From Oscillospiraceae bacterium (lineage in GTDB: Bacteria; Bacillota; Clostridia; Oscillospirales; Ruminococcaceae), in contig JAFXGY010000014.1 in assembly GCA_017536625.1 (NCBI GenBank), forward strand, positions 1 to 55,251: a stretch of DNA of 55,251 nt, given 5' to 3'. The notes under the pieces were generated by a model. That model saw nothing but the letters and a program-made list of their open reading frames with translations, was not told the DNA's origin and made no database searches. The position numbers and the translations under genes were made by a program. Below, piece after piece: positions 1-54,995 of this stretch. Numbering within the stretch: position 1 is the first letter of the stretch; each line of letters opens with the position of its first letter.

Positions 1-546
1 TTGGTGAGGATTTCACCGCTGGTTCTTGCGTAATAGTAATCTCCATCGATGAGCATAAGACCGCCGTAGGTCTTAACACCATCAACATACCACCAAAGTT
101 TTCCATCTTCAGATACGATTCCGTTCTTTACTTCAGGTTCCGGATCGGGCTGTTCAGGATCGGGATCGGGTTCGGGATCTACAGTAGGAGGATTAAGCAT
201 CTTGCCGTCTGCTCCGAAGGTATAGTTTGCTGCAGGAAGATAATCGTTGGTCTTGGTGATCCAATAAGTACGATTGGTGAGGATTTCACCGCTGGTTCTT
301 GCGTAATAGTAATCTCCATCGATGAGCATAAGACCGCCATAGGTCTTAACACCATCAACATACCACCAAAGTTTTCCATCTTCAGATACGATTCCGTTCT
401 TTACTTCAGGTTCCGGATCGGGCTGTTCAGGTTCTACTACAGGAGGATTGAGCATCTTACCGTCAACGTCGAAGGTATAATTTGCTGCGGGAAGAATGTC
501 ATTGGTCTTGGTGATCCAATAAGTTTTTCCGCAAACAAGTGTACCG
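1..546 (-). repeat. In-gene tandem repeats, 273-bp units
   Basis: The sequence starting at position 1 recurs from position 274 almost unchanged over more than 150 bp, giving a 273-bp (91-residue) period in frame with the surface protein. A third, diverged unit extends to about 546. Each unit encodes a segment with KLWWYVDGVK, GDYYYARTSGEIL and TYWITKTND motifs, joined by Pro/Glu/Asp-rich linkers (PDPEPE-type). The linker of the outer unit is longer than that of the inner unit, which fits slippage or unequal crossover in copy number. Confidence 0.5.
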
Positions 547-19956: not shown

Positions 19957-19980
19957 TTGATAACTTCCTTTTGTTAAATT

Positions 19981-20120
19981 GCCTCCCTTGTTAAAGGGAG
20001 GGGGACCGTTGCGGTACGCACGGTGGAGGGATTCTTTTTGCTTTCAGCGTTTTCCAAGATGAATCCCCCCGCCTTTTTTGAGTTTCCTCAAAAAAGCCAC
20101 CCCCCTTTGACAAGGGGGGC
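19981..20120. repeat. Inverted pair of CCTCCC/GGGAGG repeat halves, 140 bp
   Basis: Left half 19981-20034 (GCCTCCCTTGTTAAAGGGAGG ... GGAGGGATTC) and right half 20061-20120 (GAATCCCCCC ... CTTTGACAAGGGGGGC) are inverted relative to each other around a 26-bp spacer. Each half contains an outer hairpin and an inner hairpin. It lies between the peptidase gene and murT. Confidence 0.5.
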
Positions 20121-20130
20121 TTTTAAATGA

Positions 20131-26021: not shown

Positions 26022-26075
26022 GAATCCCTCCACCGTGCCATACGGCAACGGTCCCCCTCCCTTCGACAAGGGAGG
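26022..26075. repeat. Single CCTCCC/GGGAGG repeat half
   Basis: GAATCCCTCCACCGTGCC ... CCCTCCCTTCGACAAGGGAGG, a half unit with an inner hairpin (ACCGT...ACGGT) and an outer hairpin (CTCCCTT...AAGGGAG). It lies directly after the leuS stop codon. Confidence 0.5.
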
Positions 26076-26080
26076 TAATT

Positions 26081-28480: not shown

Positions 28481-28512
28481 TTTTCTGTTCCTCCAGTTTT
28501 ATCTTGAAATAC

Positions 28513-28655
28513 GCCCCCTATTAAAGGGGAAAGGGCCACTTGCCGTAAGGCGTGGCGAGGGGATTCATTTGTTCCCGATGGCTTTGGAGGTTATCTTTTA
28601 AAGAATCCCTCCACCGTGCGTACCGCAACGGTCACCCTCCCTTTAGCAAGGGAGG
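28513..28655. repeat. Inverted repeat pair between T-box and leuS
   Basis: Left half 28513-28566 (GCCCCCTATTAAAGGGG ... GAGGGGATTC) and right half 28603-28655 (GAATCCCTCC ... CCCTTTAGCAAGGGAGG) are inverted around a 36-bp spacer. The pair sits in the leuS 5' UTR, after the T-box terminator and before the start codon, so it is transcribed whenever leuS is induced. Confidence 0.5.
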
Positions 28656-28667
28656 TAAATAAAAAAA

Positions 28668-28932
28668 TCCCGTCTTTCGCAAAATACGAAAGACGGGAAT
28701 AAAAATGCCCGCGGTACCACTTTCTTTGGCGCAGAAACTGCGCCCGGCTCGATTCCGTATAACGGCGGTGCCGTCCGGTTTTACTTGCGCAAAGGCGCTT
28801 TCTTCCGGCTGCTCGAAAGTGAGTTCATCCGTTCCCCCATTGCCGCATTGCACCAAAAACTGCGGCTCTCTTTGAATGAAAAAATCGGACTACTTGTTCT
28901 TTGTCAAAGCATTTATGATATAAAACAACATT
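28668..28932 (-). ncRNA. T-box riboswitch, Leu specifier, upstream of leuS
   Basis: Read on the minus strand: a stem I region with AGAGAG and GGTGCAATGCGGC motifs, a specifier loop GATGAACTCACTTTCGAG with CTC (Leu) as the likely specifier codon, the conserved T-box AAAGTGGTACCGCGGGC (28708-28724), then a 12-bp terminator stem TCCCGTCTTTCG/CGAAAGACGGGA (28668-28698) followed by TTTTTTT. Uncharged tRNA-Leu should pair with the specifier and the T-box bulge, favour the antiterminator and switch leuS on. The promoter lies at 28939-28968. Confidence 0.5.
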
Positions 28933-28968: not shown

Positions 28969-29003
28969 GGGATTTTCGGCTTTTTGCGAAGAATTTGCTA
29001 AAA

Positions 29004-29058
29004 GAATCCCTCCACCGTGCCTACGGCAACGGTCCCCCTCCCTTTAGGCAAGGGAGGC
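29004..29058. repeat. Single CCTCCC/GGGAGG repeat half
   Basis: GAATCCCTCCACCGTGCC ... CCCTTTAGGCAAGGGAGGC. It directly follows the rsfS stop codon on the minus strand, where its outer hairpin could act as a terminator. Confidence 0.5.
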
Positions 29059-32888: not shown

Positions 32889-32909
32889 AGTTTGTTCCTC
32901 CTTCCATGA

Positions 32910-32958
32910 GCCTCCCTTGTCAAAGGGAGGTGTCAGCCGAAGGCTGACGGAGGGATTC
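32910..32958. repeat. Repeat half, left end of DUF559 cassette
   Basis: GCCTCCCTTGTCAAAGGGAGG, then an inner hairpin TGTCAGCC GAA GGCTGACGG and GGAGGGATTC. In minus-strand reading it encodes the last 12 residues and the stop codon of the DUF559 gene. It is inverted relative to the copy at 33308-33356. Confidence 0.5.
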
Positions 32959-33303
32959 CTTTACAAATTCGTCAATGAATCTGCAAACACCCTCAAAATT
33001 ATGATTTATTTCGCCGTTCGGTATCCTCATAACGGTCAAATCACGTTTTTCAATGCGTTCTGTTCGGATTTTATCTTTCAATAAACCGATTTTTGTATAA
33101 TGCTGACTTCCGTCAAGCTCTATCACAAGTTTTGCGGAATGGCAATAAAAATCCGCAATATAATCATCAATTACTTTTTGCCGGAGAAAACGAACCCGAT
33201 AATTTTTCAGAAAGTCATACCAAAGGTGTTTTTCTTCTTTGGTCATGTTCTCTCTGAGTTTTCTTGCGTTTTCAGTCAATTTCGGATTGTGACGGTAATC
33301 CAT
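32920..33303 (-). CDS. DUF559 (Vsr-like) endonuclease domain protein
   Basis: 127 residues of the DUF559 family, related to Vsr and other PD-(D/E)xK nucleases. Typical segments are visible: LRENMTKEEKHLWYDFL, VRFLRQKVIDDYIADFYC, AKLVIELDGSQHY and VMRIPNGEI. Asp51, Glu62 and Asp64 are candidate metal-site residues. Its ribosome binding site (GGAGGG, 8 bases before ATG 33303) lies in the upstream repeat, and residues 116-127 plus the stop codon lie in the downstream repeat, so the ORF matches the repeat-bounded unit exactly. The function of the family is not established. A role in moving the repeats, comparable to REP-associated transposases, is a hypothesis. Confidence 0.5.
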   Translation of the reverse strand: MDYRHNPKLTENARKLRENMTKEEKHLWYDFLKNYRVRFLRQKVIDDYIADFYCHSAKLVIELDGSQHYTKIGLLKDKIRTERIEKRDLTVMRIPNGEINHNFEGVCRFIDEFVKESLRQPSADTSL

Positions 33304-33307
33304 TTAT

Positions 33308-33356
33308 GAATCCCTCCACCATCTTCGATGGTCCCCCTCCCTTTGACAAGGGAGGC
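33308..33356. repeat. Repeat half, right end of DUF559 cassette
   Basis: GAATCCCTCCACCATC TTC GATGGTCCCCCTCCC TTTGACAAGGGAGGC. On the minus strand it precedes the DUF559 start codon and provides its GGAGGG ribosome binding site. It also directly follows the ftsK stop codon. Confidence 0.5.
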
Positions 33357-33358
33357 TT

Positions 33359-43455: not shown

Positions 43456-43459
43456 GAAA

Positions 43460-43598
43460 GCCTCCCTTGCCTAAAGGGAGGTGGCATCGGAACACAGCGA
43501 CGATGACGGAGGGATTCTTTTCTGCGTTTTCGAAGCTTTTATGAATCCCCTCGCCACCGCTTACGCGATGTGGCCCTCTCCCCTTTGACAAGGGGCGC
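43460..43598. repeat. Inverted pair of repeat halves inside ABC operon
   Basis: Left half 43460-43517 (GCCTCCCTTGCCTAAAGGGAGG ... GGAGGGATTC) and right half 43543-43598 (GAATCCCCTCGCCACCGC ... CCTTTGACAAGGGGCGC) around a 25-bp spacer. It sits between the ATPase and binding-protein genes of one operon, so it is transcribed and its hairpins could alter downstream expression. Confidence 0.5.
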
Positions 43599-43617
43599 AA
43601 AATGAAAGGAGTATTTT

Positions 43618-52032: not shown

Positions 52033-52120
52033 GCCGGTGTGATGGAATTGGCAGACGTGACGGACTCAAAATCCGTTGGGCTAATCACCCGTGCGGGTTC
52101 GACCCCCGCCACCGGCACCA
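52033..52120 (+). tRNA. tRNA-Leu (anticodon CAA)
   Basis: 88 bases including an encoded CCA. Acceptor arms GCCGGTG and CACCGGC pair, the anticodon stem ACGGA/TCCGT encloses loop CTCAAAA with anticodon CAA at 52067-52069, the long variable arm (GGGCTAATCACCC) is typical of class II tRNA-Leu, and the T arm GCGGGTTCGACCCCCGC is standard. Decodes TTG. It has its own promoter and terminator, so it is a single-gene unit. Confidence 0.5.
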
Positions 52121-54770: not shown

Positions 54771-54824
54771 TACATTCTTACAAAAATGCTTCACAGGCAA
54801 AAACCATGCCTGCTTAAAACCAAT

Positions 54825-54995
54825 GATAGCTCTCCACCGAAGTGACAGTCCAAAGGATATTTTCCTCTGGCCCAGCAGACGGAAAACGGCATTTTTCCGA
54901 AAGCTTCGGCGAAAGTTCCTTTCCTGCAAAACCGGGAAGCCTGCCCTTAGAATGTCTTGCGTTACTGATAACTTTCGCGCCTCTACCATTGTTTT
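54825..54995 (-). ncRNA. Lysine riboswitch (L box)
   Basis: On the minus strand the conserved blocks appear in order: GGTAGAGGCGCGAAAGTTATC, AGTAACGCAAGACATTC, AAGGGCAGGC, AGGAAAGGAACTTTCGCCGAAGC, GCTGGGCCAG, GACTGTCACTTCGGTGGAGAGCTATC. These match the lysine riboswitch aptamer, including the AGAGG ... GCCGAAG ... GCTGGG ... GACTGTCAC ... GGTGGAGAGCTATC core around the ligand pocket. It controls the amino acid ABC operon at 52216-54680 by terminator choice, giving direct support for lysine as the transported ligand. Confidence 0.5.

Follow-up and report, generated by a model that had tools for sequence, protein, structure and literature searches.

A DUF559 nuclease gene and its inverted hairpin ends as a probable minimal mobile element at the ftsK-ftsY junction of an Oscillospiraceae bacterium

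Elements of the IS200/IS605 group have hairpin ends and leave no target duplication, whereas miniature inverted-repeat transposable elements (MITEs) and, presumably, the RIME-like repeats of rhizobia occur as gene-less inverted pairs. In REPtrons, which join repetitive extragenic palindromes (REPs) to a REP-associated tyrosine transposase (RAYT, or TnpA_REP), a small nuclease gene is bordered by inverted hairpin repeats, and the bordering palindromes are the same as those dispersed through the genome as singles and pairs. For tnpAREP, one report states that there is no evidence for mobility (PMC8266576). The CGTC-tagged REPs, also dispersed palindromes and often paired, are described as being without a dedicated transposase, leaving the enzyme question open for the CGTC class (PMC3733652). 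Here, we describe a 449-bp unit that lies between ftsK and ftsY in a 55,251-nucleotide stretch of an Oscillospiraceae bacterium (assembly GCA_017536625.1, contig JAFXGY010000014.1, positions 1 to 55,251; the whole stretch is called the window). The unit is probably a minimal mobile element whose sole gene encodes a nuclease of the Vsr/EDxHD type, and whose hairpin ends have also spread as short non-autonomous repeats. Palindromic repeats that are dispersed but have no known enzyme pose an open question, and another class of them would thereby gain a candidate enzyme.

The window unit shares both REPtron features named above. Unlike REPtrons, it encodes a Vsr/EDxHD-type rather than an HUH/Y1 enzyme (Y1_Tnp is absent from the Pfam hits), it has no GTAG in either end, although a Y1 gene of the same genus has GTAGGG ends, and it possesses a second, variable hairpin and is multi-copy and mobile as a unit. 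The likeness to REP elements and RAYT partners drawn by the initial annotation, which was made from the DNA letters, therefore stands in logic and fails in homology, the nuclease fold and tag motif being different. A CGTC-type pattern (an unpaired CGTC tag, a stem of 8-9 bp, and a CCA-like tail) had no match in the nine loci scanned, and the letters CGTC in one window end are mostly paired within the second hairpin. The unit has empty alleles, which it would cut and be copied into if it acted as a homing endonuclease gene; unlike EDxHD homing endonucleases such as I-Bth0305I (PDB 3r3p), its protein is a single domain with no intron or intein seen, and it has hairpin inverted ends and many dispersed derivatives. 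Placement inside a mobile, repeat-bounded unit separates the gene from that of the Vsr mismatch endonuclease (PDB 1cw0, 1vsr), lack of an HUH transposase and mutually inverted ends separate the unit from IS200/IS605, and an enclosed nuclease gene, as candidate enzyme, separates it from MITEs and RIME-like repeats. Inverted repeats are shared with DDE insertion sequences, but no DDE family is among the Pfam hits. Among the matches listed from the open-access literature, no report links DUF559 to these repeats. We know of no transposon class that relies solely on a Vsr/PD-(D/E)XK-type nuclease, so the mechanism of the element would be new.

The open reading frame (ORF) matches Pfam DUF559 (PF04480; E 4.5e-27, 94.5 bits against a gathering cut-off of 20.6), and its neighbors match FtsK_SpoIIIE (2.6e-68) and an SRP54-type GTPase taken as FtsY (1.5e-77). 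The initial annotation had placed the ORF exactly between inverted repeats, with the ribosome binding site taken from one repeat copy and the last 12 codons (ESLRQPSADTSL) plus stop taken from the other; all of this was confirmed (Table 1). The two ends share a perfect 22-nt outer arm and an identical last 10 nt (GGAGGGATTC) and differ in the middle hairpin, the outer hairpin being of the CCTCCCTT-tgac-AAGGGAGG type. Folded as single-stranded DNA, they reach -15.7 kcal/mol (z -5.4) and -12.4 kcal/mol (z -4.0), far better than shuffled sequences, of which 0 of 200 did as well in either case. The 20-nt outer hairpin, with up to two mismatches, occurs at 71 places in the 1.90-Mb genome (reversed control, 0), and among these the DUF559 unit is the only neighboring inward-facing pair 200-1000 bp apart. 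PDB relatives of the protein, by sequence and by predicted fold, are 3hrl and 3r3p (I-Bth0305I); the predicted fold also matches Vsr, and E24, D51, E62, D64, H68, and D77 are invariant across 46 sequences. With this predicted nuclease fold and conserved acidic/His active site, the window protein is classed as a single-domain DUF559 nuclease of the Vsr/EDxHD type.

Table 1. Coordinates of the DUF559 unit, its parts, and related repeats in the window
Feature	Position	Strand	Basis or comparison
Complete mobile unit including both hairpins, 449 bp	32909..33357	-	Copy boundaries at other loci
DUF559 (Vsr/EDxHD-type) nuclease ORF, 127 aa	32920..33303	-	ORF, Pfam and PDB relatives
End on the gene's 3' side, 50 nt	32909..32958	+	Repeat comparison, folding
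3'-side outer hairpin	32910..32931		
3'-side second hairpin	32932..32948		
3'-side inner motif GGAGGGATTC	32949..32958		
End on the gene's 5' side, 50 nt	33308..33357	-	Repeat comparison, folding
5'-side outer hairpin	33336..33355		
5'-side second hairpin	33318..33332		
5'-side inner motif GGAGGGATTC	33308..33317		
GGAGGG, likely ribosome binding site from repeat	33312..33317	-	8 nt before ATG
Gene-less inward pair (MITE-like)	19979..20121	.	Related pair in G154; absent in G203, G204
Gene-less inward pair	28512..28657	.	Present in 6 of the 7 species compared, all but G204
Gene-less inward pair	43459..43600	.	Missing in G202, G203, G204 (3 species aligned there)
Single end copy	26022..26076	-	No repeat in G208, G204; other repeat families in G200, G198
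Single end copy	29003..29058	-	Repeat-free in G204; a different repeat family in G200, G154

The mobility of the unit is indicated by its copies. With the window unit plus 400 bp on each side as query, we found 36 matching stretches, each at least 330 nt long, away from the junction in the loci compared, none of which continues more than 20 nt past the left end or more than 8 nt past the right end of the 449-bp unit. Twelve span the whole unit, from -20..+3 to 450..456, and three of the 12 represent one locus in three species. At this shared locus the species denoted G154 is filled and the near-identical G200 is empty, with flanks 97-98% identical and ~12 nt of the empty site replaced by the insertion. 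G208 and G199 are also filled, G202, G198, and G206 also have no repeat, and G000, G205, and G203 contain other repeats or remnants. At the loci inspected, insertions occupy short gaps beside stop codons and ribosome binding sites, and DUF559 copy number ranges from 0 to 12 among species of the host genus. By sequence, gene and ends travel as one unit, and its mobility is well supported. The earlier proposal of a mobile element with terminal inverted repeats thus gains support from sharp copy boundaries and from a filled/empty pair, found at a locus other than ftsK-ftsY; the target duplication that was to be looked for was found neither at the G154/G200 site nor among 78 elements tested.

To compare loci, we took a flank inverted-repeat score of at least 18 as a pass and 25 as a stricter level. 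The window genome holds only two DUF559 genes, and both are enclosed by inverted pairs; the second (contig C45) has another version of the repeat, with outer hairpin CCTCCCCTgaaAGGGGAGG and inner motif GAAAGGGTTTT or GGAAGGGTTTT. In the 79 named relatives, 76 DUF559 genes could be scored and 54 of them pass, versus 4/331 control genes not adjacent to DUF559 (11/433 with all controls included), and at the stricter level the counts are 37/76 versus 0/331. This is the enrichment in relatives that the initial annotation had anticipated. Windows of the same geometry give 54/75 DUF559 loci versus 12/1937 controls. In a further genus set 18 of 22 pass and the remaining four have weaker pairs, with five more genes at contig edges. 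In a pooled set of loci, 97 of 149 small non-edge DUF559 genes pass, compared with none of 14 large multidomain DUF559 proteins. Of 84 enclosed genes, 64 have their stop codon within or at the downstream repeat, and protein tails are thus repeat-encoded, a caution for annotators of enclosed DUF559 proteins.

The association goes beyond mere proximity, as the candidate enzyme is assigned through co-variation. End similarity tracks protein identity with a Mantel r of 0.73 (0 of 2000 permutations; 84 elements from 65 hosts, two of the elements from viral contigs; 11 of 95 were dropped as other phyla or odd, including by error L171, a normal Clostridia element). Ends are alike within a subfamily across hosts (similarity 0.62, 1423 pairs) but not between subfamilies that share one host (0.34, 33 pairs). 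G154 alone, with 12 DUF559 matches, contains subfamily ends GGAGGGATTC, GAGGGATTGT, GAGGGAGAGA, GATGAGGTG, and others; 9 of 11 of its upstream ends best match their own downstream partner, a count biased because the ends were chosen by mutual match. The second hairpin could be parsed in 143 of 168 ends, where it takes the form of 96 distinct segments, and is nonetheless retained as a hairpin. On these comparisons of sequence, it is the protein subfamily, and not the host, that the ends follow.

At the ftsK-ftsY junction itself, we compared the 15 species of the genus. G000, G154, and G200 carry the window's DUF559 subfamily, and G198 and G205 carry a DUF559 gene of a different subfamily, whose ends also differ. 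G206 and G207 hold a gene-less inverted pair of ~105 bp and G197 a decayed, internally deleted copy, whereas G203 and G204 retain hairpin remnants at most. In G208, G199, G201, and G202 the junction is occupied by a Y1-transposase gene, identified by Pfam, and the distant species G061 has unrelated sequence. Junctions without the gene, which the initial annotation had looked for, therefore exist, and neither of the two outcomes that it named as refuting was observed. These varied contents indicate that several insertions of different kinds struck one small gap. The RAYT-type Y1 gene (L110-L113) has internal GTAGGGGCGCACC-like palindromes and an apparent hairpin remnant alongside. In G061 (L119), the only species of the genus without the element, CRISPR-like repeats (ATTTCAATCCACGC...) lie between ftsY and ftsK.

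The short inverted pairs elsewhere had been proposed to be derivatives of the unit. This is supported for the internally deleted copy of G197 and the gene-less pair of G206 and G207, and would apply to the rest by extension. Across 197 genomes of the family, the repeat pattern was found in 10 of the 16 whose DUF559 hit is strong (E < 1e-20) versus 10 of the other 181 (Fisher 5.7e-8), genomes with only weaker hits (11 of 27) being scored as gene-less. Within the genus, the gene and the repeat are each present in 14 of 15 species, G061 being without both; with n=15 (p 0.07) this co-occurrence is suggestive only. At the window loci, sites directly after stop codons were re-used by different repeat families in the species compared. 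Pairs occur in two arrangements: some face inward, like those of the window, and others face outward around a core of ~105 bp; the outward pairs of G059 and G153 (L124-L128) are present in many copies and are REPIN-like.

The ends are built alike: after the outer hairpin comes a second hairpin of variable sequence, and a G-rich motif lies innermost. In the mechanism that we propose, the nuclease would recognize the ends of its own element, probably in hairpin form, in DNA that is single-stranded or extruded, and would cut at them and/or at the target, after which repair would copy the element into the break, as in homing. By acting in trans, the ends could also give rise to the gene-less pairs and lone copies dispersed across the genome. 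Lack of target duplication, together with the replacement of ~12 nt of target at the one site resolved in detail, fits such a repair-based insertion better than DDE transposition. From the sequence and predicted structure we infer that the nuclease drives the movement of the unit.

Other explanations can be weighed against this one. If another enzyme such as a RAYT/Y1 transposase moved the repeats, DUF559 would be cargo between two copies; Y1 transposase genes do occur in 12 of the 15 genus species, one type at ftsY-ftsK in four, and GTAG-type repeats coexist. However, of 29 Y1 genes scored (30 loci, one at a contig edge), none has a CCTCCC-type hairpin on both sides and two have one on one side, and an inverted pair scoring at least 18 accompanies only two of the 29, one with GTAGGG ends. 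This absence is weak evidence against cargo because most of these Y1 genes are without any flanking repeats, and the comparison covered Y1 alone among transposase families. Random cargo would not be one gene family every time with subfamily-matched ends, and we regard this explanation as unlikely. The copies at other loci that end at hairpins, and the G200 site that is empty and repeat-free, imply that gene and ends arrived there together, which counts against a homing-type nuclease invading pre-existing repeat pairs as its target rather than as its own ends. Such an invasion, which would suit the similarity to I-Bth0305I in sequence and fold, the missing target duplication, and the repeated striking of the same junctions, at times beside hairpin remnants, is somewhat unlikely. 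A housekeeping, Vsr-like mismatch-repair gene situated by chance in repeat-rich intergenic DNA would be compatible with the fold match to Vsr, with the repair role proposed for a Caulobacter DUF559 protein (see below), and with E. coli ycjD, which keeps one locus (sapF-fabI) in many strains, 3332 of 5426 genomes matching 80% or more of the query region. Given the range of copy number within the genus, the polymorphic sites, the subfamily-matched ends, and the enrichment far over control genes, we consider it very improbable.

Several results count against the nuclease-driven mobile element that we favor. A Caulobacter DUF559 protein has been proposed as a mismatch-repair nuclease acting in very-short-patch repair (PMC12907096). 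Fold likeness alone shows no function, and cutting of the ends by the nuclease is something we infer. The absent target duplication also belongs here. In the host bacterial family, only 21 of 31 strong DUF559 hits pass: 19 of the first 24, the five below including one at a contig edge and two with visible partial pairs, and two of the other seven, one via an unlike GTAATAGG repeat. The 22 of 76 named-relative loci under threshold include some with one end visible. One subfamily (L160-L197) has ~130 conserved bp past the right hairpin, with a sharp stop near CTTTAGAGT..CTAT and differing flanks, and element boundaries therefore vary. G059 yields 145 hits to the repeat, yet no DUF559 gene was found in it (genome 87% complete), and repeat number does not track gene number (106 repeats and two genes in G000). 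The loci outside Clostridia, described next, include many that fail.

Outside Clostridia, plasmid and phage records supplied 21 loci, of which 11 pass and 10 fail, versus 15 of 300 control windows passing; at a score of 25 the numbers are 8 and 2/300. The passing loci are four of four from Deinococcus, Pseudanabaena, two of three from Sinorhizobium, a Sphingomonas gene between sufB and sufC, a weak Neisseria gonorrhoeae locus (19.4), and two phage contigs, one at 33.0 and the other, of another type, marginal at 18.7. Those that fail are E. coli ycjD, Synechocystis, Picosynechococcus, both Azospirillum loci, the second Sphingomonas, the third Sinorhizobium, Photobacterium, Shinella, and Novosphingobium. 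The score of L231 is 10.5 or 43.3, depending on the gene start assumed. G418, distant but within the phylum of the window, has an inverted pair at 29.4. Enclosure is common and not universal, and unenclosed DUF559 genes may be decayed, domesticated, or functionally different. It appears reasonably likely that these elements constitute a multi-phylum mobile class with a Vsr/EDxHD nuclease as its only enzyme, and that a large share of C-rich/G-rich bacterial palindromic repeats derives from the hairpin ends of this class; it would be a second REP-RAYT-like system, evolved independently, with nuclease and hairpin co-evolving. Such gene-and-hairpin units may explain the origin of some scattered bacterial repeats, and DUF559 would gain a testable role, the 449-bp unit being small enough to be easily rebuilt as a mini-element.

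Some enclosed DUF559 genes are situated within gene clusters: sufB-sufC in Sphingomonas (L328), and paa and hpa in Deinococcus (L232, L227, L329, L330). On pSymB of Sinorhizobium meliloti Ak57 (L234), DUF559 lies between two near-identical inverted units of ~108 bp with CCCTCACCCTAACCCTCTCCCC motifs, which we take to resemble RIME repeats. In three ycjD-less E. coli strains inspected, an efflux operon follows sapF (region of L237, L235, L236, L239). Elsewhere in the window, Rfam matches indicate a T-box leader (28686-28916, minus strand), a lysine riboswitch (54819-54993, minus strand), and a tRNA gene (52033-52117, plus strand), and a 161-nt direct repeat, 99% identical, occupies positions 1-161 and 274-434 at the window start.
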